Source of the DNA: Turritopsis dohrnii
Taxonomy: Eukaryota; Cnidaria; Hydrozoa; Anthoathecata; Oceaniidae
Direction: 5' to 3'
Assembly (NCBI GenBank): GCA_027922465.2
Contig: BQMF02000589.1
Coordinates: forward strand, 1-64,000
DNA: 64,000 nucleotides
The translations under genes and the position numbers were made by a program. This document shows positions 3,001-63,412 of this stretch, piece by piece. The notes beneath the pieces were generated by a model. That model ran no database searches and had not been told where the DNA came from. It saw only the letters and a program-made list of their open reading frames with translations. How positions within the stretch are numbered: the first letter of the stretch is position 1; each line of letters opens with the position of its first letter.

Positions 3001-3020
3001 CCGAAATTGAAGATGGTACA
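1..3020 (+). repeat. Tandem array A of 159-bp coding repeats (~19 units)
   Basis: The unit is exactly 159 bp (53 codons); its core reads like SGWESETRSTKGRHKRAA followed by AVPKTVPEIEDDTTELVGP. Units differ by a few substitutions. From about 1600 to 3000 they fall into a higher-order period of 477 bp (three units), seen as identical blocks starting near 1685, 2162 and 2639. The segment with SRKGRHKRAVAEAVPKTLPE is itself duplicated (about 720 and 1040), a further two-unit step. All units keep the forward frame open. Confidence 0.95.
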
Positions 3021-27961: not shown

Positions 27962-28204
27962 ATTTGTTTCAAGGTTGTTTGAGTGTTCATGATTTTCCAT
28001 CTTCTGAATTGTTTATTGTACAAGTTGTATTTTATTTCTGGGTCTTATTAATGTATATACATTTATTTTCAAAACTTTTCTACTTTCATTGAAGTTTCAT
28101 TTTATTTAAAGACATGCTAATGCAGTTTTTTTAATTGGCTATAGTACATTAAGGGGTGTCTTATTTTTATGTATTATTTAAACTTGCTTGATTTTCTCTT
28201 TCAG

Positions 28205-30979
28205 AAAAAAAAGAGTAAAATGACTAATGTCCAAAGGGCAGCTGACTTGCTGCAACAAGCATTAACTGCTTTGTCCAATGATTCCATGTAAGTATTGTGT
28301 CTGGAGTATTTATAATCAATGAAAAGGTCAAAATTAAGCAACTTTTTAATTTTGAAATGAATAGATATAAAACTAGATGTCTCTACATTGCAAAAACAGG
28401 GTTTAAAGTGAGTGAACATTGGCAAAGAATCTAAATAGATAATCTTCTTAAACATGTGTATGGTGCAAGGGAGATTTTGTATTTTTCAGTTTTTCTTCAA
28501 TATAATCACTGTTGTTAACTATTTTACATCTAGTACTACTTCCCAAGTTGACGAGACAAGGACATCCAATGAACAGCGATTGCAAGAACCAAATTTAAGG
28601 ATGAATAGAATAGTATTATTCTATTATAGTATGCCATCTCGAAAAAGAAAGTTTCACACACCTTTTACTTTCAAACCACGTGAAACTTGGACTCACGATT
28701 TTGTTGCTCTAAGCAGTCCAAATGATTCCTTAACCCCTTCAAGTTCTGCTTTACAGAAGTTAAAAGACGCTGCATTAGGACGTAGAAAGATTGTATTCCA
28801 GAATAAACAAGGTGACTGGCAGCATATGAGGAAAACACTAGAAGATGTTTTCCAAAAATTAAAACCATTAGGTGGTGCTTTTGAACTGTTGAGGGCAGGT
28901 AAAGGAGGATATTCACAACCACTTATGTTGATCACAATCCCAGATGAAGGGTATTCTGTTCCATACTTGAGAGATACATGCCCTACTTCAGTGATTTATG
29001 TTCGACCGATCCAAGAGAAAATATCTATGAAGAAAGAAACTTCACAACTCACAGTGATGGAAAAGAAGAAATGTATCCATTGTGACACTTTGATTAATTT
29101 GGTAGACTTGCGACAGCATACTCTAATCTGCCGCCCAGGAACTTCAGGCACGTGGTAAGTGTGACAAAATGTTTAACAGCTGGAATTTAATCCAGCTAAA
29201 CAAAATAAAAGAGAATTTTGTAGTTTTAATTATCAAGAATTATTACATTTTCAGTTCTAGTGCCTCTCTTGGAAACAATCACATAGACTCCGATATAAGT
29301 GATATCGACGATGAGGATTTATTGCCAGCTGGAATTTTAGAGTGACAAAACCGCAACAGTAAATTCACCTGAAAAAAATAATGAAGTAACAGAACTGCGT
29401 TTGTTGGTTCATGAGTTATTAGACAATGCAGAAAATAGTCTTAAATTTTCCACCTTAGAGCAAGCTATATCATGCTTGCAACGAAAACTACAAGATGAAG
29501 AGGTGAAAATAAAAATTGATGAGGATGATTTAATGTGTGATATGATATCATACTTCAAATCTTCTGAATTCCAGTCGAATTCAAAGATAAAAGTACGTCT
29601 GGCTAATAAACCTGCAGTGGATACTGGAGGTATTTTAAGGCATATCTTCACAAGATGTTTTCAGTATATGGTCAGTGGATGTGGTTCTGTTCCTCCCTTT
29701 TTTGAAGGTGACATTACCATTTTATTATGAAGATTATTATCAAAGTCATTGGTTGTCTCTGTGAAATCGTTTGGTCATCTTTTTATTTGTGTAGGTAAAG
29801 ATAACTGCAAGTATCCTATATATAATTCCGATATGATCTGCTCAGGACTATTAAAAATAGCAGGTGTAATGATTGCTCACTGCATTGTTCAATGTGAGTT
29901 TGGACTACCAATATTTGCTCCAGCTGTATACCAATATATTGCTACTGGTAATATGGATAGTGTTACCCATTTGATCACTTTGGAAGATATTACTAATAAT
30001 GATGTATTGGAAATTTGTCAGTCTGTAAGTATTCTGTATTTGAATTATGTAAATTAGGCTTGTGAAACTTGTGGCTATAATGCATTACTCTAAAATACAG
30101 AACACATTGCGAACAAAATAATTTTGGATTTTTTATTGATTTTTAGGTTTTTAATTCCAGTTCTGGAAATCGATTACTTTAGGTCCAGAAACTTTTGTGA
30201 ACATAAACTGTTCTGCACCTTCAGTATTCGATTAAAGTAGTATTGATTTTGCATTTTCTCAAAACACCTTAGCCAAATGATAATGCTTTTTTCTAGATAA
30301 AAAATGGCAGCACCAGTAAAGAACTAGAAACCCTGCAACAAAGCGATGATTATGGACGTATTATTGCAGAATGTGGAATAAACATGTTATTGTCGGTATG
30401 TGTATCCTACTTATTAAAAACTTGGAAAATGTCTACCAGATTTTGCCAACCTGATGCGATGAGAAATACAATGATAGTTGTTATAGTCTGTGTTTTTAGG
30501 AAAAAACGAAAGATCAAATTGTACAAGCTATAATATTTCATGAAAGCATGTACAAGCGAAAATTGTCTATAGATGAGTTGTGTTGTGGATTAGAAACCTT
30601 GGGTGTTTTAGGCTGTATTCGATCAAATCCAACTCTTTTCGAACCTCTTTTTGTGTACGGTGATCCGTCAAAAGATCAGTTTCTGAAAACATTCGAGTTT
30701 TCAGAGAGCCTATCGCCAGAGCTGAAACAAAATTTGATATCATATCTTGATCAATGCTCCGTTGAAGCTATGGAGCAAATCCTGTTTTATGTGACGGGAA
30801 GTAAAACTATCCCCATGACCCGCAAAATATCAGTCAAATCCGAAAGATCAGATGCTATATTTGCAAGCACCTGTTCGTTTTCAGTCACTTTACCAGATGG
30901 CTGTTGTAGTTATGGGCAGATAAAGAAGTTATTTGAAACGATTTTAAATGATAAACTGCTGTCATTTATTTCAGTTTAA
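28205..30979 (+). pseudogene. HECT-type E3 ubiquitin ligase carried by the transposon, one frameshift
   Basis: Six exons join in phase: 28205-28287 (ATG at 28220), 28534-29154, 29255-29707, 29795-30024, 30297-30395 and 30500-30979. The product would be ~650 residues: a linker region, a Cys/His cluster (KKCIHCDTLI...LRQHTLIC), then a HECT domain (IKVRLANKPAVDTGGILRHI is the N-lobe start; IPMTRKISV and ASTCSFSVTLPDG the C-lobe, with the catalytic Cys in TC). HECT ligases take ubiquitin from E2 onto this Cys and pass it to substrates. The only lesion is one extra base at 29343 giving TGA. It resembles G2E3-like HECT proteins repeated in invertebrate and fish genomes. Exon 1 begins right after an acceptor, so a 5' leader exon is expected. 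Confidence 0.8.
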
Positions 30980-42813: not shown

Positions 42814-42874
42814 TAAAAGTGATATGTTTAAAGTTATGAAAAATATTTTTAAATAAAATAAAAAAGTTTTAAAA

Positions 42875-44312
42875 ATGTCCAAGAGAACATTAGTTGTGAA
42901 CTGGGCTGGAATCAATGGCACTGCTAAACACAAGAGAAAGTTTGTATTACGTCCAAACGATAGAAATATTTACATCTGTCCTGTGCCAAATTGCCTACAC
43001 ATTGGTTTTAAAAGCAGTCGAGGTTTACGCAAACATATCGATGTCGAGCATTGTTGGTATTACTATCTTGACGAAGCTCCAGATATCAAAAGGGGAGAAG
43101 TCGAGGCACAACAACCAATCAGAAAGAAAGTATGTACAGCAAACAAGCCTTCCTTTTCTATTAACGATGGTATTGGAAAGACATTTTGGAATTGGCTGCG
43201 TACACCATGCGGAGGAGGGAAGTCTGAAAAAGAAGCGAAGCAATGTGCACAACGATGTATGAAATTTTTAATAGCTAGTTTTGACGACCTCGAGTCAGAA
43301 TCAAGTTTAACCGAAGAGTTTGTCGATTGTTGCATGGGTACATCCTCCATCATTATGGACTTCCTTAAAACTCTTGAAGAAGATTGGAAACTAAGTTGTT
43401 CGGCGTCGTTAAATTACCTAAAATCAATATCATACATACTGGACTTTCGAAAAGCGAACGGTGTATCCGACAGAACATTACGTTGTTTTGCCTTCACTGA
43501 AGTTTACATACCACGTGGTAAAGAAAATCTCGGAAAGAGAAAGAGACTCGAGTATTCTCGCAACTTGGATTTGGAAACCCTCATTGCTCGAAACAGTTGG
43601 GCGACCTTGGACGAAATGGAAAACGTCATCCCATATCACATCAATTGTTTCCGAGACATCTTACAAGAATGCAGAAAAGAACGAAACGTGTCGGCATCTC
43701 AATTGGTGTTTACAACGAGATTTATTGCTACGTATTTATTTTTTCGAGTTAAGTGCTCCAGACCAATGACCTATCAATACTTAACCATAGAAATTATTAA
43801 CAAAGCAAAGACCAATGGAGGTTACATTGACCAAAAAGAATTGAAAACCACCGCAAGATATCTCTTTGACACTGTGATTCTCGATTCCGAAACTGCGACT
43901 ATTTACTCGTAACTCGTATTTACTCGTAACAAACAAGGGAAAGCAATACACCGCGTTCTCGTCAGCTATGAGCGTCGTCGTCCACGAAGCTATTGGCAAA
44001 TATATACATCCGACTCGCTATCGACAAATTCTGGAGACGGAAAGTGCAGAAAGACTGAACCAATCGAAAAGAGAAATCGTTTCACGTGACCAAAAGCACA
44101 GTTCTTACGTGGCGAAAGTAGCTTATCAAAAGAATTTGTCAAGGGACGTTGCTTCACGCAGCAAAAAATGTATGGAGAAACTGGTTGGCGATAAACGAAA
44201 GGAAGTGAGTGCAGGCATGATGGATGTTTTAAGATCAATCAACGACGCGGCTCGTGCATTCGATCAGCAAGTACTCAATCGAGCAGAAACGATAATCATA
44301 GCCCTGCAGTAG
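42875..44312 (+). pseudogene. Zinc finger-tyrosine recombinase protein, deleted in the middle
   Basis: ATG at 42875 opens 345 codons: a C2H2-like finger (CPVPNCLHIGF...LRKHIDVEH), a conserved block with WNWLRTPCGGGKSEKEA, helical core-binding sequence and the first catalytic region (KCSRPMTYQYLT). The frame stops at 43910-43912 in a local duplication of TATTTACTCGTAAC. A second frame (from ~43923; Met at 43968) continues the domain: HPTR fits HxxR, and RDQKHSSYVAKVAYQKN gives H and Tyr nine residues apart. About 20 residues that relatives should have between the frames are missing. I recall similar proteins as multi-copy families in corals. It starts 60 bp from the Harbinger end. No TIR of its own was found. 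Confidence 0.72.

Positions 44313-45262: not shown

Positions 45263-45295
<33 letters not shown>
44471..45295 (+). mobile_element. 5'-truncated LINE 3' end with (ACTT)n tail
   Basis: A 170-codon ORF (44483-44995) begins in mid-protein (SANVWALNQNSTKRIMTLHK...VRIMTFSD) and matches the C-terminal region of non-LTR reverse transcriptases after the RT core, with MYKLLNGNVPSPLYD. About 260 bp of 3' UTR follow and the copy ends in ACTT repeats (45261-45294). The 5' truncation and microsatellite tail are typical of CR1/L2-like LINEs; the exact clade is unresolved. Confidence 0.7.
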
Positions 45296-47705
45296 GATCT
45301 CGATCTTTGAGCCTTAAATCCTCCTACGGCAACGAAGTTTAAGAAATTGAAAGTATCGTATTTCTTTGTTCATTTCAAATGCTGTAGCACAACAAATTAA
45401 GAAAAAGTCGTTTTTATTGCAAGATTTTATCATAAAAGTTGAATTTACGTCCGAATTTGCTGGAAGTGTCAGTATAAGAGAGTAGATTGTTGATACTGAT
45501 TGGATTTAGGGCAATCGTCTTGTTTCAGTATAATTAGTTACTTGCATGAATAGAAAGTCTTACCCTGCATTTGACATGTAAGAAAGCCTATAATTACATA
45601 GTTTCCATCGCATTTCACCTTCCTGAACCACTCCTTAATTAGAAATTTACTACTTTTTTGCTACTTGAAAACTCCCTTGAAGGGGTACCTTGCAACGGCA
45701 AGGTTAGTCTCAATCATCGAAGATTACCTAACGGTCTTAAAGATGTTTTTAATCACTTTTTAACTGTTAAAATATTATGAATATAAAGTTTACTTCATGT
45801 TACTATGTTCGAAGGCAAAACACTTTTTTAAATTCTTTTGAACAGTCCTTTTTAGACTAAAATAACTAGTCCGAAAATTGGAAATTAGGGCATATTTATT
45901 GATGTCATGTTTTTCTGTGGTATAGGAATGGAATAAAAACAAGAGAGTAACTGAATGTTCGCATTCATCCTACTAATAAGAATATAGAAATGAACAGCCC
46001 AAAAGCCTTACTAATATTCGTGCAACAAGCCAAAAATTAAGTTTTCGAATCGCGTATATAATAATTTTTGGAAATTAGGGCACCTTTTTTTCCAAAACAA
46101 TTGCAACTTTAAAAGCTTCTATCTTTCGAAGTTTTTGGTATCAAGCTTTGGCTTCATACAACTTTTTGTTCCTAACTGCTATGCGGATAGCGTGATATGA
46201 AGCAAATAGAAAAATCCAAACAAAAATTCAACAACGTTAGCATTGAAACTTTAAGTCGTAATTGTAAATGTTTTTGCTTGATATGGCGTTCTGTACTTTT
46301 CACAGAATGGAGTGCTGTTTTCTAATAAAAACAAATAATTTTTTTCTCACTTTCCCCCCTTTATTAGCATACGTTTCGGTGTATCACACATCACGGTCAA
46401 ACTAACTGTTTTTGTTATAAATCTGAAAAATTACAAATGCCTAACCTTCCCTTAAGTTTAATTAAAAAATCTCAAGAGGGTAAGACATGACTGTTGTTCA
46501 TGAGTGGCGGCAGTTTCTTAACGTTTAATGACTCTTCTATGGGAAGTCCCTTATCACATTCCATGACTGGAGTGCTATTTATATGATAGGATCTACACCA
46601 CATAACAAAGCAATCAGTGATACTTATAGTTCGTTAAAGATTAAGAGGGATATGTTATACGAGCATTTCGGAAGTTGAATTCCCGTTATTCAATTTATTG
46701 TATATGTTGAGTATAACTTTCTTCAGGTAGGGCTAATTCAAAGGTAATCATAGCCATGTAATGTAGAAATGCCAAATATATTTCATTAAAAAAAAAATCA
46801 AGGGAAGTCTATCTGTTATCAATTGCCATTGGGAGGCGATCTAATAGCTTAAGTTACCCCTAAAACTAAACTTAAGATATGCTTGCTATCAATTATGAAA
46901 ATTCTGTCAGGAAGAAACAAATATATCATAAAATACTTGTATGTATTCAAATATACCGTTTACAAGAACAAAGTTTCAAACTAAATCAAAAACAATTTCA
47001 CCAAATCTTTCAAACGAAGTTTCTCCCTTTACTATACGTCATTCAGCTAGATAGACTTGCTCAATAGGTCTTAATAGGTTCTCATTATTTTCCTGATCAA
47101 TGGTATTTGTTGATTGGGATATGAAATAAGAGAAGTAATAAAAGTCATAAAAACGACGCTGTACATTGATACAGTATAACAGTTACATTGACTGTGGAGT
47201 TTTCCGTCACCTAGTTAAGAAACAATAGCCTTCACGTCGAATGCTCTAAAACATTTTGTGTGAGGCTACCGGTCCCCCAGGACAGAATCCTGTATTAGCC
47301 ACTCAAAGGTGGGGGTTTCACATCTGCCTAAGATGCTGACTGTAGCCGGCTTTTATCTGAAATGAAAAAACATGAGTGTTAAAGGGATAAACGTAAAATA
47401 AAAAATAAAATAAAAATACATAACAATTGTTACATGTTAGCTAGGTAGCATCAAGCCTCGATGATTATGTATGTGACAAATTATATTAATCCAACAAGCA
47501 AGTTTCTTGTACAGCATGGCATCATTATGCTCCTAAATCAGTAAGTAAGTACTGAAAGTAATTGAAAAACCAGCAAAAACTATGAACTTATATATATATA
47601 AATATAATACCTTATTTAAAATGTATGTGATTGATTCCTCTTCAGCAGTTTCTTTCCAATTTAATCATCATTTCACCAACCAGTGGTGCTAATAATACCT
47701 ATATT
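45296..47705. other. Non-coding, no clear gene
   Basis: No ORF with a recognisable product. It contains GGATTTAGGGCAAT (45503) and two GGAAATTAGGGCA copies (45882 and 46070) of a motif that recurs elsewhere in the window. Confidence 0.4.
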
Positions 47706-47853
47706 CATTCCAGTAGTTCTTCAACCAATATATCAACGAGGCAAGCATATTAACTTGGGAAAGCAATGTATCAGGTAGCCATTCCAGTAGTTCTTCAACC
47801 AATATATCAACGAGGCAAGCATATTAACATGGAGAGCAATGTTTCCGGTAGTC
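47706..47853. repeat. 74-bp tandem duplication
   Basis: CATTCCAGTAGTTCTTCAAC and the following sequence is repeated once with period 74 and few differences, just downstream of the SET-ZF-YR gene's stop codon. Confidence 0.85.
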
Positions 47854-47950
47854 ATGAATACAGCCAATTTTCCCAGCAGTCCCAGAAAATAAAACCGAAG
47901 AGATAAGATACCAAGTACTAAGATAAAAAAAACTGTTTCAAATAACCAGA

Positions 47951-49644
47951 TTATAAACAGTCAATTTTCTTCCTTTTTTCCGTTCGTATTTTTGTCAGCA
48001 ACCGTTTCATGCCATACATATCAATAAACCTGGCAACTTCAGGATTAGCCTCGGCAATTTTTTTAACATCCCCAGCTTTGATAAGAGAATTCGGGTTGTT
48101 GATACAGTGCTTGAAATATTTTGACACAACCTTCTTTTCTGGTGTGGAAAATTTGGTTCTCAGCAAACTGCCTTTCTTCGACTTTCTTGCTTCGCTGTCA
48201 CTGAGATCATCGGTTGGGGGGACAAAATCATCATCGTCATCTACGCCGGAGCTTTCGGATTCTTCTTTGGAGCTAACAGTATATGAGCTTTTCTGTGACA
48301 AGGGTGCTTGCTTTTCCACATTATTAGCTTTTTCAGCTTTGGTTTTTCCTTGCAGATAGCGGAGTTTGTCACGAATTTGTATCTCCGACAGAGGGAGGTC
48401 GTAAATCTGTTCTGCCTTCGATCGCACGGTTTCCAAAGTAATCGAATTTGATGTCTTCATGTCTTCACCGTAAATGGATGTTAATTGGGAATCTAAATTG
48501 GCATCACTTTGTCTCATTATGGCATTCATTGCTTTATATGTGTTAGCAACATTCTTAGCTTTTTCTTGGAGGAAATACGATTTTGTTGCTGTTTCCTCAC
48601 TATGACACATCATGTTGCTAAGATCCCTTTTAAGTTCAGGTTTTGTACCATGACACTTCGACACGAAACTTTTTCGAATCAAGGTTGTGGTGATTTGGTT
48701 TTCCTTTCTTTTCACTAAGTTCTTATTTACAGCTCGAACGAAAAAGCGACTGAACTGATCACCAATCATCGATGAACTCATGGGTTTTCCTGACAAACTA
48801 ACAAAGACGCAAGAATCTGGGTCAGTAGGTATTCCTGGTAGTTGATTTCGAAGTCGGTTAATGTAAATGCTGCACAGTTCATAGGTTTCCGCAGAAAAAG
48901 CCAACATTGCCGGACCTGATGTTGCAGCTGTTTTGTGATTCTTCACAGGAACCACATATATTTCGCTTTGGTCGAGTCGAGCTTGTCCGAATTCTTTCAA
49001 AGTCATATTTCGAACAGCCCCGGGGCGAGACGCGTTTCCCAATATAAGCGAACTGATAAGGTAATCTCTGCATGTTGTGAAACGCTGCAACGGCAGTTGT
49101 TGATTCAAAACTTTTGCTTGCTTCAACCACAACTTAGAATTGGCTACGGTTTCCGATTTGTCAAAAGTTAGCATCTCTTCCTCTGTAACAAGATTGGAGA
49201 GATCCTCAACCTGTCTTTCAAATTTCCTATGAGCGACTTTGTCTTTGTATGTGGAACTCCAATTGAGGGTCGTCTTAATTAAGCGATTACACTCCTCAGT
49301 ATTGGTTGTTAATCCTTCTGGTTTGTCACAAATCACGAACTCGTAGAAGAAACGCAGTGAATTAAGATAACTTTTTACTGTTCCTGGAGCTCGAATTTTA
49401 TCAAAACTGGTGAGAAATTGGTTCCTGATTAATTTCTTATCAAATAAAGTAGATATATTGAAGTCATCCGGGCATATGGTCTTCAGTATGAACAACACCT
49501 GTTGTGCCCGTTGATTAGCAGATCGTTCAGGTTTGAGCCGACCATCAACACTCATAAGCCGCTTCTTGTACTGTTGTATATAGGTATTAGCACTGGTTGG
49601 TGAAATGATAAACCGAATTTCATCGTCTTCGTCATCTTCGGACG
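47951..49644 (-). other. Tyrosine recombinase domain, last exon of the fusion gene
   Basis: One 564-codon exon after acceptor TATTTTATTTAAG. It begins with a DE-rich stretch, then the core-binding helices (APGTVKSYLNSLRFFYEF) and the catalytic part: SRPGAVRNM (R), KNHKTAATSGP (K), TTLIRKSFVSK (R; HxxR His replaced), CHSEETATKSYFLQ (H and, nine on, Y). The tail is rich in acidic and basic residues and ends with KFSTPEKKVVSKYFKH, a Myb-like helix, and RTEKRKKIDCL. Confidence 0.8.
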
Positions 49645-52600
49645 CTTAAATAAAATATAAAATTGTCAGAATTAACAACATTCAGTCAACAGGGTCGAAA
49701 ATAAAATAACAAATTCGATTTAACGTACTACATAAATTTTCCTCATCGCCGTAACTTGAGTTCACAGACTGAGGTTGACTGTCTAAAGCGTCAAGCACAA
49801 AAATTAAAATAATATAAGTGGAACAATTGGATGTCTTGATAAAATGCTTTTCAAAAAGCAGTAACTGTAGGAGATTGTAGTCACATTCATCTGAAATGAC
49901 ACATTTCAACAACAATTAAACATACGTCTCTGTTCACAGAATTGGGAAATGTATGTTGTTGGCAAAAATGTTGTGCGTGAAAATTCTCTAGTGCATCCTC
50001 GCAGCAAAAAAAAAATCACACGCAAATTATCAATAAGAGAATTACATCTTGTGTGCAGAAAATTTGCAGCGTGTGTTAAAATCAATAAAATTAATTTCTG
50101 TCAATAACGCATTTCGAATGAAGACAAGGCGCTGTCGATGTTGACTCTCATTCCCAAACAAAAATTAGGCAATTACCATACTCACCATCCTGTTGGTGTG
50201 TCTCTGTTTCACCTTCTTTGATGAAATGTACGGTATCTATAAATTATACATTGTACATTTGTGTGCGAATACTGATTGTGAAAACATATAGCAAAATCAA
50301 CGGCAACCAAGTATGAAGTAAATTAACAAAGGACATTCGTTGTTCCATGTAGGGTATCAAAAGCAAAGTAAAGGTGTTAATGTGTGGATTTAGGGCGCTA
50401 CAATTTAAGATTCCAATGGGATGAGCATTAATCATCGGGATCTAACAGTTTAGTTACTTTGCTGGAATCATATCACCGTAGAGAACTTACTGTTGTCACA
50501 TATGGTTGTTTGCTGCTTTGGATCTTCAAACTGCACGGGAACACCTATTGATAATATAACGAAAATGAAGGGTAAGAAAACTACTCCGATGAGCTGCTAA
50601 ATTCAGAAGAATTAATTCAAATTAAAATGTCACCTAATTTCCGAATCATCTTTTTCTTTCGCTTTTCCTTTAAGTCCACGGTATCGTACAATTTACATTC
50701 AATAAAATCTGGGTCGCTACTTCCCTCATCACTATCAATTATGCCCAAACCCCGCTTTCTTTCAATAACAGAGAGGTCTTTGACTCCATACTTCCGCATA
50801 GCTTCCTTAACATCTGAAATCTCTTGTTTCTCATCTTCGCTAGAGTCATCTTCGCTGGTAACAGCAACAGAATCTTCTAACTCTGGAACAGCCGATGCAA
50901 TAAGTCGTTTTAAGATAACTTTATCTTTAATTTTATGCGTTTGCCTCAAATGATTACCAATACGTGCAACAACCTGAAAAGACGCTGATATCTCGTAAAG
51001 ACTTTCATTTCAAACATTTCAGTTTATTATCATTATCACACAATGAAATATCTGTAGCTTACTTTTGTGCAGCTTCTTACAGGGCATGCTTTCCGAGAGT
51101 AAACTTTCCTTTTACTTTTTCTGACCCCATCAGGTAATGTTTTTCTTTTCTTATACATATTCAACTGACTTTTAACACCCGCAGCCTGTTCTTCCTTCAT
51201 ACCATGTATTGCCATCAAATGTTTCTTTAGATCAAATCTCTCCATTTCACATAAAGGACATTTTGATCTCACTTTACCAGATAAAGAAACCTTCAGCGAA
51301 GGAGCCTTTTTCTTAGCAGCCCATAATTTAAATATCTACATTGAATCACAAAGAGCTATATAGAATTCTCAAGATCATGTATCATACAATACCATTTGTT
51401 AGCAAAAATTTGATTTTTAATGTAATAGAGAGCCATAAATAAAAAATAAATCATACGTACTTTTGAAGCTTCTGATAAATTGTTTCCAGTCATTGCGGTT
51501 TTCATTGAAGCAATAAGCTACAGTTGAAAAAGTATCTTTAAAATTCTGTTATTCATAACATAACATTAGGAATACCCAACTAAGAAATGAGATTACCCTT
51601 TCATTATCAACATCTTGAACATCACTGCTTATCTCCAAAGCTTCTACTACATTTTCGTTAACAGGGCCATTGATGGTAACAGATGGCAACTCCAATGCAT
51701 CGCTGTTTTTCTCCAAACCTTCTCCAAGCCCTTCCTCAACAGAGCCATTGATGGTAACAGATGGCAACTCCAATGAATCGCTGTTTTTCTCCAAACCTTC
51801 TCCAAGCCCTTCCTCAACAGAGCCATTGATGGTAACAGATGGCAACTCCGATGAATCACTGCTTATCTCCAAAGCTTCTACTACATTTTCGTTAACAGGG
51901 CCGCTGATGGTAACAGATGGCAACTCCAATGTAGTTATTTGTAATCCGTCAATATCACTTCCTAAATGGAAATACGTAAAATGATCAATTTTAGAATGAA
52001 CAGAAAAAAGTTTCCTTGAACAGAACAACCAATAACATTTACCAGAACTATCCGTATTTGTATTGAGGTCATCTCCATAAAGTAGTATACATTCAGCCTA
52101 AGCCAGAAAAAGTAATCAAGTAATTCTGAATCAGCATTTCATTTTTCAAGCAGGTTTACTATCAGTGTAAATATTTCAAATCAAATGTGTACAGGATTAG
52201 CAAAAAAGACGTGCGAAACAATATCAACCTCATCCATCGGTACACTTCTCACAACAGATAACACCTTCATAACATAATCCAAGTACTGAAAAAATGAATG
52301 GACACAAAAGCTTGTTACTATTAGATTGTTTGTAAAGGACCTGTTTTATAATTCTTACAATTTTAAAATTATAAAATTATAAGTTTAAAATTAAAACATT
52401 TAGCATACCCTAGGATTATTCTTGCAAAACAATTCAGTTAACACATTTAGTACACGTTCACTTTGACTTTGATCAAATTTTCCAAACCCAGCATTTGCAC
52501 GAAGTGATGCTTTACAACATATGTGAAAACAGTAAATAATATAGCATGAATTTAATATTCTTTGTCATACAAACTCATAGTTACCTTTTGCAGAACCCCC

Positions 52601-55600
52601 TTGTTTATACCATTCATGTCTGCTGCAGGACTCCTACAGACATGATTTAGAATGATAGATTACAAACATATCACATTAAAGGTCACCTCTGATATAAAAA
52701 CAAACCGTAAGAAAATACAATTTCTATCTCATTTTATGTATGCATTTTATGTATAAAAAGCTTAAACGAGTACAATACACTAAAATATTTTTTTAAATTT
52801 TCATTTCGAAGCTTCGTCTTCATTCCCGCTCTCGAAAATGCAAACAAGATCATAATGGCCACTGTTTACGTCACTACGATTATGAAAATAGATGTTTGAA
52901 TATGTAACCTCTGTGATCAAATATTTCAACATTGATGTGATTTAGTGATTTAGTGAGTTATTTAGCATCAATATACAAGTACTTTGTTTTTTATCAGACG
53001 TAACCTTTAAAGCTTCAGGCATAACGTTGAAAGAAATGTATTAATACCTTTCCTTCGAATATATTCTGCAAATATGTTCTCATGTTGTATACAACATCTT
53101 TCAAGACATTATCTGGTATAGCTTTTTCATCCCTATAAAATATTAAATTAAAAGATCATTCTGCATTTACATATCAGGAATCTACCTAAAATAAATAACA
53201 ATATTTTACATACTTGTATAAGGTTAGGTCGATATTTTCAACATAACCATTATTAGCATTATCTTTTATTAACTATAAAATCATTGTTAAAATTAAATAT
53301 GCCTGTAAAATTTGGTAGATAGATCCAAAAGCACATGAAATCACAATCTGAGATGAAACAGGCTTACTTCATTAACTTGTGGAGAAGTTGCTATGTCCAC
53401 ATCTAGGGCATTTTCAGCCTAAAACAATTCAATTGGGAAAAGTTTAACAGTTTCAAACACTTGATAACAATGTAACCTATTTAATTTTAGCACAGACAAC
53501 ACAAGTTTAAATTTTTGTAATACTGTAGAAAAGATTTGTCACAAAATAGTACTTACACAACAAATTGCTAGTTCTTGTTGATGTAAAGAATCTGGAATTT
53601 GACCAGATTCACATAATATCTGTCAATAATTGATATTCAATCAGAATACATAACAAATACAACACAAATAGAAAAAAATAGAATGGAATGCAACAAAGAC
53701 ATACTGAATTAAGGGTTAAAGGTCTCAGGTTAGAACCATCCTAAAAATAAACAACTCGATCACAAGAAAAAAATAAGATGAGTAGCAAGGAAGATAACCA
53801 CATGATGACAATATGCATATATACCTTTCGCCAAGACAAACCACTCGATCCATAGCTATACCTATGAAATCAGTTTTTCAACATCAGTGCTACATTTAGA
53901 TAGTCATCACAAAACATAATGAATAGAAGCATTATTGTTTATACAATAGCTCTATAGTTTGTTTCTTCCCATTGCCTTTTGCCATTGCATGTGAGGTCAC
54001 ATGCCTATAAAGGTAATGGTGCTGTTTTGAAGTAGATCAAACAGAAAGATTAACATATTAGAAGTAACTTTTCTTCTGATATAGAGCAACTTCCAGGGAC
54101 AAATCCTTTTATTATACGTTGGTCTCCCCAAAATAATTATCAATCCAGCACTAGAATTATACTATATATACTAAAATGTGTATTCGGATCAAACACATAC
54201 CAGGCGCGGATCTAGGATTTTCTGAAGGTATGTTGCGAGCACGACCAAAATGAATTGCGGAGCGCAGGGGATTTGGAGGGTGGGGCGAAGCCCCAGAACC
54301 TTTTTGAAATTTTTAACAATTGAAGGTCCCGAGAAGCAGTAAAACATAGCAGTAATATAGCGTTCAGATCACATTTTATTATCTCGGTAACGAAACGTTT
54401 CCCTGTCCTTTAAAACTGTACTCCCATGGAATTTCTATAACATTTCAAACTAGTTGTCTGTTTCGCCTAATATCAAGGCTCGTCAGACCATCTTGGAAAA
54501 TCTTTCCAGCAATTTTCTAATGTAAAGATAATGCAAAAACAGTTCACACTATGAAACAAATTAGTAGAAGCTTCAAAATTCTTCTTTAAGAACAACACCT
54601 TATCAACTTCAGAATAAAATTGGAAATCATCTTGATTAATCTGAAAAGAAGAATTGCACCTTGTAACCAATATAATGGAGTGAAGGATTTCATTTGGTGA
54701 TTTTCTTCAATTAACATTAATTAACACATCAACATCATGACAGTGTCCTGAAGAAACACTAGCCACCAAGGAGTGAAAAATTTGGGAGTAGTGATGATAG
54801 AACCCAAATACAAAACTTTCATGTTTTCTAAAATATTAACAGCACTAAGCTAATGTCAAACAGGTTCTGCTCTGTTGTTCTTTCACAAATGTGTTGCATG
54901 ATGAATTCTGCTTTCCAAAAAGAGCACAATAAAGGCAGTACACACCATCAGTGTTGACTGAATATCAAAGCCATTGAAATTTTTTAGCCACTGGAAAACT
55001 TTCTAGCATTGAATCTGCACAAGTCCTTGGTTAGTAGAATTTTTCATCATTTGAAAAAGCATTATAACAAAGTAATTCAGAGTTACTCACCTAGGGCTCT
55101 CCATTTACATTCTTAGAAATAGAATTTAATCTTTCAAAAGGGTAAAGGTTTGAATAAGAGCTATAAGCATTATCACTACCAGTACTGTGTTATTGTCATT
55201 ACTTGTCATTAAGGAAGCACTTGAGAATGACTAAGATTCATGTTACACAGAGAAGTGTGCTGGGTAATAAGTCGGAGTTACTTTAATCATTTAGCTGTTG
55301 TTATTGGAAATACAGTAAACAGTAATACAGTTCAAATTATGGAGGTTCGAATTATAGAGATTCGACTGTATATAAAATTATTGCTTTTCACAAATGAATT
55401 ATTACAGGATTTTGACAGATCAATCAGTATGTTTAGATGCTGCTAAAATACTAAATTACTATATTGTAGTCTTTATGTTTTTCTCATAGCTGGAAAGAAA
55501 AGTTTCTTTCTTCTGCTAGGTCAAGAAAAGTGTGGGGTTTTTTGTTGTTTGACTTTGATATTAGTGGAACAAAATGATTAGGAAGTGATGCAGATTTTGA

Positions 55601-58600
55601 TAAATGACAGCTTCATTAAAAAAGAGAATCTCTTTGTGTCTCCTGAGTTGATGGGAATTCATGGCTGAACAAATTAATATTTTTCTTCAACAAACAGTGA
55701 ATAATAAACTTGGATATTTTTAGTTATGACAGTGTGTATAATACTAAAATTCACACTAAAGAAGACCAAATACTAGAGCAACAATTATTTACAGCTTCAA
55801 TATTCATGTATACTCCTTGAAGTAGATAAACTCTTCTTGTCTGTAAATAGCACAGGAAGAGATGACTGAAACATGTTTTTATTTTTTACAAATCGAATAA
55901 ATCTTGTGTGTATCGTAAACCAAAGAAAAACATTGGTGCTTGGAGTAATAACAAGAATTCAATAATTCAATTCAATTCAATTCAATTCAATAAAATTGTT
56001 TATATCTGCAGAGTATCGACCATGGAATTTTTGCATTAATCTACATCTAAGTTGATAATAGTTATCAAAACACACTTCAAAACCGATATCTTGCCTTGTC
56101 TCATTTTTACAAACAAAAACACTCAAAACTATATCTATCCACATGATATGCAGATATAAACAATTATTTTGTCATTATCATGACATGTCAAAACAAAAAC
56201 AGTTGTGTAATCAAAGCAATAAACTTACACATAATTAAAAATGACAATATGAACTTTCAGATTAAATTATTTGTAAGTATCCATGGTGGAAAAAGAATAA
56301 TAAAATACCAAAAGCTATCTTGGGGAGCCTCACTTTTATACATTTTCAAGAGGTAATCCGCCTTTAAAACTAAACCCCATAAACCAAAAATTATCAAGTT
56401 AGAATCTTTATGTTTGTTGGGTTAGTTTCTTCGAAATGTTCAGTAAAAAAATAACTTACCTTCATCCAGAGAGAGGCCATGAATAAAGAATGCATAAGGC
56501 TTGAATTTCTCGCACATATTTGCACAATGTGGTTTGAAAACATACTGTTTTTGATATTTTATCCTACTAAGCACGCAATAGGTTCTTGCCCTTGAACTCA
56601 CTGCTGCATTTGATACCAAGTTAAATTTTGACGTCAAAATACACATCCATTGGAATTAGGGGGTTGCTGAATATGGCAGATAGATTTCTCGACATACCTA
56701 GGTCTAGCCTGTGTCATGGCTTACCTCCTTGCCGCAATTTTTAAGGTCAGTATTGAGTGCCATTCTATCTAGGCTAGGCATTTCGCACATATGCGAAATG
56801 GCTCGTACAATTCTGAAAGACATGAGATATACGGAGTTACTGCCGTATCAGTAAATAAGCAAATAACACGAACGTCACAAATTACGGCAATGTAAGAAAC
56901 GCTGAACTACATTTTTTTTTGGAGTCTTTTTTTACAGGTATGTCGGTCGCACAGTTTGACAGACCTTAAATCAACGCCTGCCTACCTTAACTCAGTGCCT
57001 TCTTTGATGTCTTTTAAAGCATATAAACATAACGCAGGAACAGCCGAAATGGATTGAACTTTCATTTTACAATTACTATATTTTGCTGGGCTGTCATTAA
57101 CAAATTTTCCAAGGCCATCATGCTGTGTTGCATCAATACTAAAATGTTAAAAATTTATATTTCAAAAGAATGATCATGTCAATACAACCACGATAATTTT
57201 TATATCAGGCATGGAAACTTGGTGGAAACGATCGTTATCGTTATCATGTCGTTTACGCAATGTTCAAATGTCAGTAACCGTCCATTATTTCCCATAATCA
57301 TATTTCTTTTTTCCTTAGATAATCACAAAGTTTGTGCTTTTTTATGTTTAGTTTTCAGGATTTCGTGATTTAGCCATATAACTCAGTTTTCTCATAATGA
57401 GGTATGCGGTCACGCTAGCGCTCACATACAACGCTCCCAGAGAGCCTAGTTAAAAACATACTCAACTATTTATATGGACTAAAACATGCACAACTTATTA
57501 AATTAGTTTTCATGCTCAATTGATAATGAAGGTAACGATAATTCAAATTTCCATGCTTGATTATGAAATAGAGCATTATGTATGTATATAAACTGACTAA
57601 ACACATGGGAATTTGGATATTTCTCCTTTAATACATAGTATAGTATAGTATTTTCAGATTACATATTACATATTATGTATATGTCGTTATGACTGAAAGT
57701 TAGGACCACTCAACCAAAACCTGCAATAAAGAGCGTTTCATACTACTTATGACAGCCCCACGACGAAGTGCATTCACAACGTTTTCTTCTGATTTGAGAA
57801 TACAAGATTGAGAAATGTATTGCAAAATCGTGAAAGAAGTAATTATCAATCTGATTTAATTTGTAACTTAGGACTCTTTACTTTGTACATTCATATTGAT
57901 ATAAATAAATTGTCCAGAACAAATTAATTGTGTTTTTTCTATGAAGCCCGAGAATATGTGAATAGAATTCGTCGAGATACAGACGAAGTTCATCGTAATA
58001 TTAAAGACACAAAAGATCAGGAACACAAAAATTCTCACGATTTTTGCGACATTTTGCTTTTTTAGGATTCACGACTTTATATGCTGGCGACTTTTAAATA
58101 TTTTCACAAAAAAACATTTCACAGATTTGCAGCCATTTTTTTGAAGGGTCAAGGGTGCTCGTGACTTTTTGTGTTATTTTCGTATTCAGATTGAATAACT
58201 TCGTTTTCAGATCCCCAAAATAAGTAGGCAGTGGCGTAACTTGGGAGTTGTTTTGGGTGCGATCGCACCACCCTCGGATTTAGTTGGCCTTCTTTTTTAT
58301 CAAGCAATTTTTCAAGCAATATACCACCAAACATTTCTTGAACACTTAAGTTTAAGCTAAGGGGAGGACTGAGATATATGTTCTGGTGAAGCATGTAATA
58401 ACCATTCGTTCGTTTGAATTCATTCCGAATGCTTCCTGAAAACTTATTATTGTAATGTTTGGTATTGTTATGTTAATGTTTTTAATAATCGTTTTGTCGA
58501 TACGCCACACAAAAGCGCAAATTTAATTTTACGACCATTATTGACACTACTCCTGTATCGCTAGAAAAGCGGTACACACCCGAAGATGTAGAAATTGTTC

Positions 58601-59561
58601 ATTTTCTTCTTTCTTCATTTTCTGAAGAACTAAGCCGAATGGGAAAATTTGACACAGTAAAAAGTTTTGTTTTTGCATAAAGTTTTACCACCCCAAAAAT
58701 AAAAAAAATTTACCGTGTCAAATTTTCCCAAGAGCTATGTTTCTATGCGGTTGCTATGCTAGATCGTCATCATTCAATCGGACGTATTCAAATAAGAGAG
58801 TAAAATAAAATTATCGAGGTAATTCTTTATAATAAATCACGATTATTTTGGTGACAAATTCTGGTCGAGTGGTCGTAACTAACTGAATTCCTTAGTTCCC
58901 TTAAATGATAAAAAAATTCTTGAAATATATAAACATTTCATCATTTTGATGGGAATTTGGATGCCGTATGTAAAACTAAGTTTTATGTGGCTATTAAGAT
59001 AAAAATATGCAAGTTCTGATATAAGCAACTCACCAGAAATTCTTCCCTTGGAATTGAAAGAAGAACAAAAAACCACCCAGGTTGTTCTTTTCATAGTCTT
59101 CTTCACGTTCCTCAGCCTGCTCTTCTGTTATCAGTTCACCTGGATATTGCAGTAAGATCTCTCCCCTTTTAACGAATCTTGTACAAAATATACCAAAGCC
59201 TATGTGTAGTAAGTAGAGAAAGGAGAGGAAAGAACACAATCATGATATTTAAAGAATAGCATAACACCACATCATCACACCTGGAGTTTTTAATAATCAA
59301 TTATATAAACCTTTTGCTTAATTTGATCACGTCAATGAATGGCTTATTAAAACCATAATTAAGCACTTATGACAAATAAAATCTTCACCAGCAACCAACT
59401 ACTTACCGATGTTATCGTTAATCCTTTGCTTTATGAAGCATTTTTTGTCCTTGAATCCGTTCTATTATATTGAAAAGATGCAGAAATAATAAAAGCAAAG
59501 TAAACAAAGCCACTAGCAAGGCATGATAAAGGTGTTCACATACATCCTCTAAGTTCGACAT
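47951..59561 (-). CDS. SET methyltransferase-zinc finger-tyrosine recombinase fusion gene (~22 exons)
   Basis: I could splice this minus-strand gene with every junction phase-consistent. Exons: 59561-59544, 59461-59407, 59199-59034, 57138-56986, 53861-53825, 53740-53705, 53619-53557, 53418-53368, 53272-53214, 53132-53048, 52633-52585, 52509-52409, 52285-52229, 52097-52043, 51961-51597, 51517-51461, 51335-51063, 50973-50634, 50544-50491, 50236-50186, 49890-49729 (may hold a small intron) and 49644-47951. The ~1,326-residue product has a SET domain (12-143), a family domain (~240-320), acidic repeats (~330-450), two zinc fingers (495-513, 553-573), an acidic linker, a YR domain with R969, K1000, R1086, H1110 and Y1119, and a basic Myb-like end. 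ATG at 59561 gives MSNLED and joins directly to the SET. No stop or frameshift is seen. It is probably nuclear. Host-domesticated gene or multi-exon mobile gene are both open. Confidence 0.82.
50634..51335 (-). other. Zinc finger exons 17-18 of the fusion gene
   Basis: Exon 17 holds CPLCEMERFDLKKHLMAIH (C-x2-C, H-x4-H) and the first half of finger two (CPVRSC); the junction TK|VV then gives GNHLRQTH from exon 18. The intron splits the second finger. The same pair of fingers is encoded without an intron in the giant ORF at 6311-6540. Exon 18 then codes an acidic, Ser/Asp/Glu-rich stretch. Confidence 0.8.
51597..51961 (-). repeat. Exon 15 with four 26-residue repeats in ABBA order
   Basis: The 78-bp unit encodes LELPSVTINGSVEEGLGEGL-type sequence. 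The outer two units carry GPVNENVVEALEISSD, the inner two GSVEEGLGEGLEKNSD, so variants lie in the order A-B-B-A. The exon stays in frame and resembles, in principle, the repeat expansion of the giant ORF at 1-8729, with an unrelated unit. Confidence 0.85.
53862..56985 (-). other. Intron 4 of the fusion gene (3.1 kb)
   Basis: It contains a repeat end with GCGCGGATCTAGGATTT and GGGGCGAAGCCCC (54197-54310), as found in dispersed DNA elements; a (ATTCA)n run at ~55956-55992; and two exon-like minus-strand segments: 56788-56729 (MALNTDLKNCGKE, donor GTAAGC) and an ORF 56646-56454 ending at GATGAAG|GTAAGT. Neither fits in phase between exons 4 and 5, so I did not include them. They may be an alternative or unrelated transcript. 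Confidence 0.5.
57139..59033 (-). other. Intron 3 of the fusion gene (1.9 kb)
   Basis: Contains a MITE-like terminus CAGTGGCGTAACTTGGG followed by GCGATCGCACCACCC (58230-58275) and a hairpin with 21-base arms GGGAAAATTTGACACAGTAAA (58641-58661) and its complement (58709-58729, one mismatch). No coding sequence supported. Confidence 0.5.
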
Positions 59562-59565
59562 TATC

Positions 59566-59640
59566 TTTCTTTCTTTCTTTGTAAAACCAGATCACTGACA
59601 CTGACACTGACACTAAACTAGAAACTAGAAACTAGAAGCT
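59566..59640. repeat. Simple repeats in the 5' flank of the fusion gene
   Basis: TTTC repeats (59567-59580), then ACTGAC repeats (~59594-59615) and GAAACTA repeats (~59618-59638) lie just upstream of the ATG, probably in the leader or promoter region. Confidence 0.75.
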
Positions 59641-59740
59641 AAAATCTCCTGTCCACAGCACTTGCAACAGAAAGAAGTAACCACGAGAGTCGTGTGATTA
59701 ATCATGAAAGTGAAAAACTACCGGCAACCGAACATAAGAA

Positions 59741-59925
59741 TTGCGGTTGGATTTCGGGCACCAAATCGAAAAACGGGCTTCGCCATTTGGATTTAGGGCG
59801 CCACGAATAGAATTTCGGGCTCATTCGCCCTATTTCCAATCAGAAAATGAATTTCGGGCCGTGCAATTGGATTTAGGGCAACTGAAATCAATAAATAGGG
59901 CGACCGTGATTCCTTACTTACTTAC
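59741..59925. repeat. Cluster of ATTTNGGGC repeats
   Basis: Six spaced copies of GGATTTCGGGC / GGATTTAGGGC / GAATTTCGGGC, plus an inverted GCCCTATTTCC, in 185 bp. Single copies of GGATTTAGGGC occur at ~45503 and ~50385. It is probably a miniature element or a repeat consensus of unknown class. Confidence 0.55.
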
Positions 59926-60185
59926 TTATCAGTTCTGACGTGAATTTGAAGAAAGAAGTCGTAAATGATCAAACCAAAACGCGGGTAAAATTCACAATGG
60001 AAGAAGACGTTTTTTTTGTGTAAAGGATTTGCAAAATATGGCAAAGGATTTTGGACACTTATACTTTAAGATCCTGAATACTCTTTTCATCCGTGTCGTA
60101 ACGAAGACACGCTGAGAATTATTATTATTATTCATGATTTACAATTCACAGGCGCCAACAAGTGCCTCTTCGAATCGATCATTGT

Positions 60186-62870
60186 TTAATCGTCGTAGGA
60201 AAATCGTAAGTTCTTCCAATATTTGTCCAACTTGTTTTTAAACGTGTTGATCGTGTCAGCTTCTACAACGTCTTTCGGTAGTTCATTCCAAACCTTCAAT
60301 GTTCGAAAATAGAACGAATTGTGTTGAACTCCTCTCAATCCATCTTCTGCAAAATTACGCTCCAGCGGCAGGGCGTGGCGTCGAAATGGCTTTATTCTTT
60401 TGCGGAAAAAGGGCGAGAGACACTTCACATCGTACGAATGATGGTGTTTAAATATTTCGATCATATCACCCCGAAGTCTTCTGTACACAAGTGATGGTAG
60501 CTTTCGCAAACGCTCCAAATACGTAAGGTCTTTAAACCCATCCACCAATTTTGTGGCTCGTCTCTGAACGGATTCTATCAGTTTAATGTACTTCTTCAGA
60601 TGTGGTGACCATACACTCTGGCAGTACTCTAGATGTGGGCGAACAAAGCTCGTATAAAGTTGCTTGAATAATTTTCCGTCCAGAAAGGAGAAACTCCGTC
60701 TAATGATTCCAACCATTAAATTTGCCTTTTTGATTTTTAGGTTGATATGCTCCTCGAACGTAAGCTCGGAATCAAAAATTACCCCCAGGTCCTTTTCTTC
60801 AAAGACATGTTCAAGTTCACAGGAACCGAGCGTGTATCTTTCGGTGTGCATGATGTTGTTAAACTTTCCGATAGTTAGGACGTGACATTTGTCTGGGTGA
60901 AATTTCAGAAGCCATTTCTTTGACCACTCGTGTAAAGCATCGATGTCATTTTGAAGTCGCTTAGCGTCGCTTTCCGAATTCATTTTGCGAAGTATTTTCG
61001 TATCATCGGCAAACAGGTACAAGCTAGATGAGACACAGTCAGGAAGGTCGTTGATGTAGATAACGAAGAGCAGTGGGCCTAGGACGCTACCTTGTGGAAC
61101 ACCACTGATTACCTTGCTTGAATAGGAATAACTGCCATTAACTCTCACTACCTGTAGTCGCTCAAGCAAAAATGCTTTAATCCAATGAAGAAGCCGTCCA
61201 CTGATCCCATATGATGATAACTTTGACAGCAAGCGTTGGTGGGGAACAGTGTCAAATGCCTTGGCGAAATTGAAATATATACTGTCGACAACTTCTCCAC
61301 AAGCCACAGCTTTGGTGCATTCCGTAAGGTAAGAAAGCAGCTGCGTTGTTGTTGATCGTCCTTTTACAAACCCGTGTTGTTTGTTAGAGAGAAGGTTGTG
61401 GTTTTCCAAATGCGACATTACTTCTGCCTTTACTAGCGACTCCATTAACTTACAAACAATTGAAGTTAAACTAATTGGGCGATAGTTTTCTGCCATATTC
61501 CGGTTCCCTTTCTTAAAAATTGCGGAAATGTAAGCCAACTTCCAATCCTTAGGCAGACATCCTTCACGTAACGATTTCTGAAAAATCTGTGCGATTGGTG
61601 CAGAAATGTAGTCAATAAGTTCATTCAACATACTTGCAGAAATTTCGTCCGGTCCACATGCTTTGTTGACATTTAACTTTTTGATTTCAGACTCCACAAT
61701 TTCTTTGCTTAAATCAAGATCGCTTATCAGAGCGCTTGTCCGTTTTTCTAGAGATGGGATATTATCTGTTGGCTCATTGGTAAAAACACTCGTGTATTGC
61801 TTCTGTAGAATGTTAGCTTTTCCTGCGTCATCGAATGTTTTTATATTACCGTTATTTTTATCGATAAGCGGTGCAATACCAGATTTCGTCTTTAGTTTAC
61901 CACGGACATGGGACCACAATGACTTAGGGTTGTTCTTGGCACTACCAGCAATATCTTTTTCGTATTGACGTTTAAATTTACGCATCAGAGATTTCACACT
62001 GTTGCGGGCTTTGTTGAAAGCTTTTCTGTCGTGATCACTCGTTGATACACGTCTGCGGTTCGTTATCCATTTTCGGTGAGAAATCTTCTTCTTTCGTATA
62101 GCTTCTCGAAGGGTTTTAGGTATTGGTATTTTTCCTTTCTTTTTCCATGCGATTTGTGTATCTAATTTCGGGATGAATTTATCTCGCAGAGCATGCATCG
62201 TTTCCTTGAAAATTGACCAAGTGCTTTCAACATCTAAATGTATATTTTCTTGCATGAACTTTTCAGACCATGACGTAGACTCGAGGTACTCTTTCATTGC
62301 GTGATATTCGCCCTTGTGGTAGGCATAGCGCTCTTGTGGCTTACCGTAATCCACATAACAGTTGTAAATAAAAGAAATGACGGAGTGGTCACTCTTTCCC
62401 AGAGGTGCATGAAATTGTAGTTCGGAGATATGCATTTCCTCGTTCGTGAGCACTAAATCTAGTATAGATGGGTCGTCATTACCGCGAGTTCTGGTTGGCT
62501 CTAAAACATGTTGTTGAAGATAGCTGTCATTGAGAGCTTCGAGGAACAGGGCTTCTTTACTTGTTTCATTCAGAGGTGTCGAACAGGATTCCCAATTAAT
62601 ATTTTTATAGTTGAAGTCTCCAACAAAGCAAAAATGAGAGAAGTTCTGGCTTGTAACAGTCTTCATCAACAAATTCAATTTTTCATTGTTCTCTGCTGAC
62701 GTATTGGTGGGACTTCTGTAAAAACAGCCGAAAAGCAATATATCGTAATTTTTCAGCTTCACCTCTAATAGACATGCTTCTTGGAAATCAATAGGTAGTG
62801 AAAACTCAGAAATGCTGGAAACCATACTGGAAATGACGTAGATGGCGACACCCCTTCCAACTCGGTTCAA
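60186..62870 (-). pseudogene. LINE ORF2: endonuclease and reverse transcriptase, catalytic Asp changed
   Basis: 894 codons open. The endonuclease part has GVAIYV, GCFYRSPTN, VGDFNYKNINW, DLVLTNEE and GKSDHSVISF (the terminal SDH). RT motifs: KACGPDEISASMLNEL, AENYRPISLTSIVCKLMESL, motif A as YFNFAKAFDTVPH (Asn where the family has the first catalytic Asp, codon AAT), VPQGSVLGPLLFVIYINDLP, and FADDTKI (intact). The C-terminal HLEYCQSVWSPHLKK region follows. Upstream, in-frame sequence continues (ELTTSKKSELIELVE*TSPHIVAVCEV) with one TGA at ~62980, so the true N-terminus is cut off by that stop and by a frameshift near 63030. Confidence 0.82.
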
Positions 62871-63412
62871 TAGATTAGCTGAGTAAAGGCTGTAGTTGGG
62901 AATTTGGTAATCGACTTCCGATCTCTCACTTCCGTTTTTCGGCTTTACCTCACAAACTGCTACGATATGGGGGCTGGTTCACTCTACAAGTTCTATAAGC
63001 TCGCTTTTCTTGGAAGTTGTCAGTTCATCTGCATTTGTATACAAAATCGAATTGGAGACTCTTGGTTAGACTTTGATTTTGACTTCGATTCTTCTTTCAA
63101 AGGTGATGTGTTGGCATCAGTAGCATCGTCTGTGATTGAGATTTGTTTTTGTGTGCGTGTTTGCTTTTCTGTTTCATGGTTAGGTACGTCTTTATCAATT
63201 TGTGTGCTATTCATTTTTTTGTTTCTTTTTGCAGCGGTAATTTTACTATTATTGTGTTTTGTGTTTCTTCTAATATTTTTCTTCTTAGTTTTACTACTTA
63301 TATTCTCAAGCGTAGTTTGGTTCGAAGTTAATTTTGAATTGGAGCTGGAAGGTTCCTCTTTCTGAACTTCTTCACCTGCAGCCCGTTTTTTGGCGTACCA
63401 CCGACTTTCCAT
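62871..63412 (-). pseudogene. LINE ORF2 N-terminal region, frameshifted
   Basis: A 130-codon frame (63412-63020) rich in K, S, T and N ends at IRFCIQMQMN*; the neighbouring frame continues YTNADELTTSKKSELIELVE, a typical start of CR1-like ORF2 endonucleases, then hits TGA at ~62980 before joining the 894-codon ORF2. So two lesions separate ORF1 from ORF2. It overlaps the end of ORF1 by 85 bases. Confidence 0.55.

Follow-up and report, generated by a model that had tools for sequence, protein, structure and literature searches.

Is a gene that joins a SET methyltransferase domain to a DNA recombinase a settled part of its host's genome, or does it belong to something that moves? The question is raised by a 64,000-nucleotide stretch of the hydrozoan Turritopsis dohrnii (positions 1 to 64,000 of contig BQMF02000589.1, assembly GCA_027922465.2), hereafter the window, which is the first 64 kb of a contig that we call C589. 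On the minus strand of the window, between 59561 and 47951, lies a gene whose predicted product combines a SET domain, two C2H2 zinc fingers (ZF) and a tyrosine recombinase (YR). A preliminary description of this DNA interpreted the gene as a recombinase element carrying its own chromatin modifier, or as the domesticated descendant of one. Judged from sequence comparisons, the gene probably belongs to a DNA transposon that moves itself and supplies its own chromatin modifier, with SET, ZF and YR encoded in one gene. The first of the two earlier interpretations is thereby favoured: the unit, introns included, has been found at two places, where its ends agree and its flanks differ; its YR belongs to a multi-copy family; and a SET domain lies upstream of the YR at 7 of 76 genomic places.

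The unit was delimited by comparison with a second copy, on contig C372. The element body (45296..59912, minus strand, 14,617 bp) is similar to C372:73366-86786, introns included, and on both sides the similarity ends at a direct (AAGT)n repeat. The alignment runs from 59927 to 45280 of the window in blocks that are 84-98% identical. At the left (5') end, both copies pass from unrelated flanking sequence into AAGTAAGTAAGTAAG-GAATCACGG; the direct repeat AAGTAAGTAAGTAAG (59913..59927, minus strand) is identical in C372 (73351-73365). At the right (3') end, both copies have GATCGAGATC followed by AAGT repeats, (AAGT)8 in the window (45264..45295, minus strand) and (AAGT)4 in C372, and then unrelated flank. 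The next 5.7 kb of C372 had no match when searched against the whole window, and the left-end sequence of the unit was found at two places in the genome. Comparison of the two 120-base ends for terminal inverted repeats revealed nothing beyond two matches of 7 bases. Near the unit ends, a pair of 20 bases (47537 and 59910) consists of AAGT-type sequence and was disregarded as an inverted repeat.

Two segments of the window unit have no counterpart in the C372 alignment: 1.3 kb of intron 3 (57573..58886) and 2.83 kb of intron 4 (54048..56876), the latter being either a later insertion or a deletion in C372. Exons 4 and 5 are separated by about 296 bp in C372. The length of intron 4 in the window, 3124 bp, is thus explained because the C372 copy lacks these 2.83 kb. 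Within the additional segment, positions 54400-55020 (minus strand) contain decayed frames resembling what we take to be a hAT transposase. The C372 copy is itself broken: it has stops in the YR, about 0.4 kb of extra sequence inside SET exon 4, and about 2 kb missing across the end of the YR. In ten chosen colinear blocks, to which alone the percentages apply, mismatches between the two copies amounted to 79/2971 (2.66%) in exons and 77/3122 (2.47%) outside them. Excluded from this comparison were 57049-57572 (84% identical), the repeats of exon 15 (51622-52009), 45280-46252 and 59273-59356, together with a few overlapping pieces. With no excess conservation of exons, no trace of purifying selection is therefore seen after the split of the two copies, which speaks against a domesticated descendant.

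No large gene other than the SET-ZF-YR gene was seen in the unit, and no further frame of at least 120 amino acids was listed within it, antisense overlaps aside. A 930-residue open LINE-type frame (60186-62978, minus strand; endonuclease and reverse transcriptase) lies just beyond the 5' end of the element, outside 45296-59912; no further reverse transcriptase frame was recognised inside the unit.

The gene was rebuilt on the minus strand as 22 exons whose phases fit and which form one open frame of 1290 amino acids. All 21 introns are GT-AG, in agreement with the number and phasing of exons given earlier; the structure is a predicted model. Exon 1 (59544..59561) holds the start codon and precedes exon 2 (59407..59461). 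The first half of the SET domain is encoded by exon 3 (59034..59199) and the second half by exon 4 (56986..57138), both recognised by Pfam, and the domain is completed in exon 5 (53825..53861; YSYG...WRK). Exon 6 (53705..53740), like exons 2 and 5, is also supported by alignment to P0007, a Hydractinia protein. Specifically, P0007 is 48% identical over 143 amino acids (query 15-156), spanning the joins of exons 2 to 6, that over intron 4 included. The spliced SET domain scored 66.3 bits in Pfam, as compared to 28.4 bits for the exon 3 frame alone and 26.9 bits for the exon 4 frame alone. Together with the short gap in C372, these data bear out the proposal that the junction over intron 4 restores the SET domain.

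Downstream of the SET domain, the model contains exons 7 (53557..53619), 8 (53368..53418), 9 (53214..53272), 10 (53048..53132), 11 (52585..52633), 12 (52409..52509), 13 (52229..52285), 14 (52043..52097), 15 (51597..51961) and 16 (51461..51517). Introns 5 to 16 are 75-414 bp in length and have compatible phases. The search of database proteins found no relative of exons 7-15. When exons 6-14 and 16 were pooled, leaving out exon 15, their coding bias was equalled twice when stop-free pieces of intron were drawn 5000 times. The bias was uneven from exon to exon and was negative in exon 7. In the joined exons 6-16 the chosen frame is open and the other two frames contain 23 and 34 stops; the openness alone is weak evidence because the splice sites were picked to keep the frame open. 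Exon 15 encodes 26-residue repeats of 78 bp, detected at 51660-51931. Different repeats precede the fingers in gene B, a ZF-YR gene at the start of the window (53 amino acids), and in the type of element represented on contig C37 (36 amino acids).

As read from the sequence, exon 17 (51063..51335) encodes C2H2 finger 1 (about 51204-51260) and the first half of finger 2 (about 51063-51086). Its join to exon 18 (50634..50973), which contains the second half (about 50935-50973), makes the second finger whole. Exons 19 (50491..50544), 20 (50186..50236) and 21 (49729..49782) are followed by exon 22 (47951..49644), which holds the complete YR, a C-terminal part and the stop codon, as judged from the rebuilt model, YR alignments and fold comparison. 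Similarity to P0003 (from about exon 16) and to P0001, P0002 and P0004 (from exon 17) continues into exon 22. The order proposed earlier, an N-terminal SET domain, two C2H2 fingers and a YR catalytic set, is thus reproduced by Pfam, sequence reading, the catalytic residues and the fold match.

The closest relatives of the SET part with known structures are KMT5A/SETD8 proteins, which account for all of the 14 best Protein Data Bank (PDB) sequences, with expectation values (E) of 4.8e-21 to 1.4e-19. The domain differs from KMT5A in being N-terminal, unlike the C-terminal SET of that enzyme, and in having VNDS in place of the INHS motif. As VND also occurs in the Hydractinia and fish relatives, the change looks like a family trait rather than a recent loss.

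The YR of exon 22 has a fold like those of Cre, Xer and Flp. Its catalytic codons are at 49025-49027 (R), 48932-48934 (K), 48674-48676 (R), 48602-48604 (H) and 48575-48577 (Y) on the minus strand. These R-K-R-H-Y residues are kept in 11 of 11 chosen YR copies (nine from the genome match list, the window gene among them, plus those of contig C94 and gene B) and are invariant in an alignment of six rows. The residue three positions before the second R, a histidine in the classical HxxR motif, is T in eight copies, N in two and P in one. A histidine nine residues before the Y is present in all 11; either this histidine or the replaced one may be that of the Crypton R-H-R-Y signature. In profile searches, Pfam Phage_integrase did not match exon 22 at E up to 1 and gave sub-cut-off matches to three relatives, Pfam DUF3504 matched neither exon 22 (E up to 1) nor the relatives and gene B (E up to 10), and PHROGs did not match exon 22 at E up to 1. 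Three scans of viral contigs confirmed no relatives.

The family was surveyed in the 435.9 Mb, 891-contig genome, where scoring covered 77 of 431 candidates for the YR and 150 of 450 for SET; the counts are thus lower bounds, and the places may include alleles. At least 81 YR matches merged into 76 places, and there were at least 161 SET matches, of which the 150 listed ones were used for pairing. A SET domain lies upstream of the YR on the same strand at 7 of the 76 places, the window included, at distances of up to 12.8 kb; by chance, 0.2 such pairs would be expected within 15 kb. Within 17 kb, two pairs had the SET downstream on the same strand and none had it on the opposite strand. On contig C170, SET exons and an unbroken ZF-ZF-YR frame occur inside 5 kb. 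On C37 and C94 the order is SET, an array of 36-residue repeats, ZF and YR, the YR frame being split over two frames in C37 and unbroken in C94.

Some copies of the C37 type are nearly identical. An 801-bp segment of C37 that spans the two SET frames with the gap separating them had 23 matches, 14 of them full length at ≥97% identity. Identity was 99.86% over 3521 bp for the C14 copy and 99.95% over 3757 bp for the C29 copy, and their left flanks are different. C37, C14 and C29 represent three insertion sites, in each of which an AAT-rich tract precedes ACGAAATTGATGGACTCC; C29 and C94, which share one flank, are probably alleles. Following this type for 19 kb did not lead to its right end. In C94, the SET is preceded by a stretch of about 1 kb that contains a 357-residue frame (L041, about 4755-5825), by eye a retroelement piece. 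The stretch is also present in C29, one of like length occurs in C14, and it is absent in C37.

L002-L007 form a third YR type, which shares 45-47% identity with the YR of the window gene. Five copies taken from L002-L008, excluding L005 (one stop) and L008, differ pairwise at 0.6-1.8% of synonymous sites (10 pairs). Their ratios of nonsynonymous to synonymous change (dN/dS) of 0.33-1.19 are based on few changes and say nothing firm on selection. Between the window YR and the third type, the proportion of differing synonymous sites (pS) is about 0.83, which is saturated, against about 0.36 for nonsynonymous sites (pN); this points to long-term constraint on the recombinase. SET is thus found in several YR subfamilies, though not in every one.

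The closest named database proteins are from Clytia and Hydractinia. The full-length query yielded six matches (P0005 and P0006 through the SET part), and SET alone and the alignment yielded one each; the search was seeded on exact 5-residue words, and these numbers are no measure of family spread. P0007 (LOC130630515, named 'uncharacterized'; a cluster of 22 member sequences) has ZF-YR first and SET last. This reverse order may reflect two tandem copies read as one gene. The fish protein P0005, also named 'uncharacterized', has SET twice by Pfam, finger-like motifs by eye and a weak YR-like region. The latter, at an hhalign E of 0.003 and a probability of only 10, is suggestive only, and no PDB match of note was obtained for it. 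According to the preliminary description, no family with both is known. The titles, openings of abstracts and text passages searched contained no description of a SET-YR fusion; however, P0007 and, insofar as its YR part is accepted, P0005 are database proteins that hold both. Homologues in which SET and ZF-YR were always separate genes had been named as grounds for rejecting the fusion. The parts are not always separate, yet there is also a multi-copy ZF-YR type with no SET close by.

YR elements recombine short identical sequences. In the mechanism that we propose, excision would come about when the YR recombines the two (AAGT)n ends, probably releasing the unit as a circle, and the YR would then insert it into a further (AAGT)n tract. 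Binding of the element ends would fall to the zinc fingers. The SET domain would act on chromatin nearby and methylate a lysine there, likely lysine 20 of histone H4 (H4K20), and this mark might either keep the insertion expressed or quiet it, sparing the host. Introns would be kept in the compared copies because the unit would move or be copied as DNA.

Among known systems, Cryptons are YR DNA transposons that in animals lack terminal repeats and a C-terminal domain, and that have been recorded in Nematostella and sea urchin (PMC3212892); the text of that article contains neither 'SET domain' nor 'methyltransferase'. Like the window unit, Cryptons are YR-encoding DNA units with no reverse transcriptase inside and no terminal inverted repeats found. 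The window unit differs in its size of about 14.6 kb, its 21 introns and its SET and C2H2 domains. We do not file it as a Crypton, the comparison here being one of unit architecture. The vertebrate DUF3504 genes, which derive from Crypton YRs, are reported to have lost the catalytic residues (PMC3212892). DUF3504 genes (KCTD1, ZMYM2-4, QRICH1, WOC) resemble the window gene in joining a eukaryotic YR-derived domain to other domains; the window gene, by contrast, keeps the catalytic site and lies within a repeated unit. SETMAR (Metnase) is a host gene in which SET is joined to a DDE transposase reported to be inactive (PMC8704517). It shares with the window gene the fusion of a SET methyltransferase to a DNA-mobility enzyme. 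The window gene has instead a YR with its catalytic residues, a repeated unit and a KMT5A-like SET. A domesticated fusion of the SETMAR kind would be a single host gene with a dead mobility enzyme; the window gene has kept YR residues, two unit copies and a large family.

We considered whether the locus could instead be a domesticated host gene, in which a YR element fused once to a KMT5A-like gene and is now a targeted chromatin regulator rather than a recombinase, on the pattern of SETMAR, which originated from a SET gene and Hsmar1. This view, first considered on account of the 21 introns, was set aside on the C372 copy and the exon/intron comparison, and we regard it as unlikely. The many small exons and the additional DNA in introns 3 and 4 would suit long residence, the entire frame is open, and one study describes KMT5A-like genes as turned on in Hydractinia embryos (PMC10368294). 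On the other hand, the YR catalytic residues are kept, unlike those of the vertebrate DUF3504 genes; a second copy with identical ends exists elsewhere; exons are no better conserved than introns; and other SET-ZF-YR copies exist, some of them nearly identical. A passenger role is quite improbable; here the YR would be a bystander, and the gene would lie within larger repeats that owe their movement or copying to other machinery or to segmental duplication. Such a role would fit the C37-type repeats, which exceed 19 kb with no right end found and no other long frame recognised, and the shared flank of the probably allelic C29 and C94. It fits poorly with the window and C372 copies, which end sharply on both sides at the same short repeat, with the lack of other listed frames in the unit, and with the differing insertion sites of C37, C14 and C29, all of which start at an AAT-rich tract.

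It is very improbable that the exon model merged two adjacent genes, of which one (exons 1-7) would be a short SET gene and the other (exons 8-22) a ZF-YR gene. Such a merger could be suspected from a gene structure that is a predicted one, from middle exons whose sole resemblance is a weak one to gene B (E 0.023), from the ZF-YR-SET order of P0007 and from the C17-type ZF-YR without SET nearby. Against this stand the short introns 5 to 16 with fitting phases, the exon 4-5 gap of about 296 bp in C372, same-strand SET upstream of YR at seven places, and the fish protein, in which two SET domains, finger-like motifs and a YR-like region occur in a single chain.

Several findings weigh against a self-moving transposon. 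The window's own subfamily was found at only two places, of which the other copy is broken, and a duplication breaking at (AAGT)n simple-repeat tracts could possibly have produced the pair. Twenty-one introns are many for a transposon, the NHS motif of the SET domain is altered to NDS, and the histidine of HxxR is substituted in the YR. With the queries used, SET and YR occur together at only 7 of 76 places, some of which may be alleles of one another, and the two downstream SETs are likewise above chance. No SET better than E 0.02 was found within about 7 kb upstream of the third-type ZF-YR on C17. Finally, with no right end in 19 kb, the larger C37-type repeat may be moved by something else.

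The transposon interpretation bears on a set of genes otherwise attributed to the host. KMT5A-like genes number as many as 65 in Hydractinia, 24 in Hydra, 61 in sea urchin and one in Nematostella, and are treated as predicted methyltransferases, those of Hydractinia being switched on in embryos (PMC10368294); 'recombinase' and 'integrase' do not occur in the main text of that article. The Hydractinia, Hydra and sea urchin genes resemble the window gene in having a SET nearest KMT5A and many divergent copies, and most of the Hydractinia ones also have an N-terminal SET and a long C-terminal part. Many of the Hydractinia and sea urchin genes may be elements of the SET-ZF-YR kind, as one Hydractinia protein, P0007, suggests. 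This would provide a concrete explanation for the dozens of divergent KMT5A-like genes that were taken as host chromatin regulators in the Hydractinia and sea urchin embryo study. We lean slightly towards a still broader proposal: such elements would constitute a new superfamily of large DNA transposons of animals, each moved by a ZF-YR with a KMT5A-type methyltransferase in the same protein. This superfamily would extend across cnidarians, sea urchins and fish, and it would be the true source of the H4K20 methyltransferase gene 'expansions' there. Host genomes use histone marks to silence transposons; an element with a recombinase-methyltransferase fusion would write its own histone mark at its landing site. 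Whether the mark tracks insertions can be asked directly.

Other features of the window include additional ZF and recombinase-like genes. Gene B (3-8729, plus strand) is a single open frame of 2908 residues running from the contig start to a stop at 8729, its own start lying beyond the contig end. It encodes an array of 53-residue repeats (Tandem Repeats Finder (TRF), 39 periods over 4-6218, with a non-repeat stretch within), two C2H2 fingers and a YR with R-K-R-H-Y. This YR is 35-38% identical to the C37-type YR, which has SET upstream, and 25% identical to that of the window gene. A middle domain common to gene B and the window gene was weak (5 of 1000 shuffles were as good) and is not claimed. 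Positions 42857-44312 (plus strand) encode a third C2H2 protein, in two frames, with a C-terminal part that is recombinase-like by eye and in which Pfam names no recombinase. Finally, frames at 26413-30979 (plus strand) resemble what are presumably an integrase-core protein followed by a HECT-type protein.

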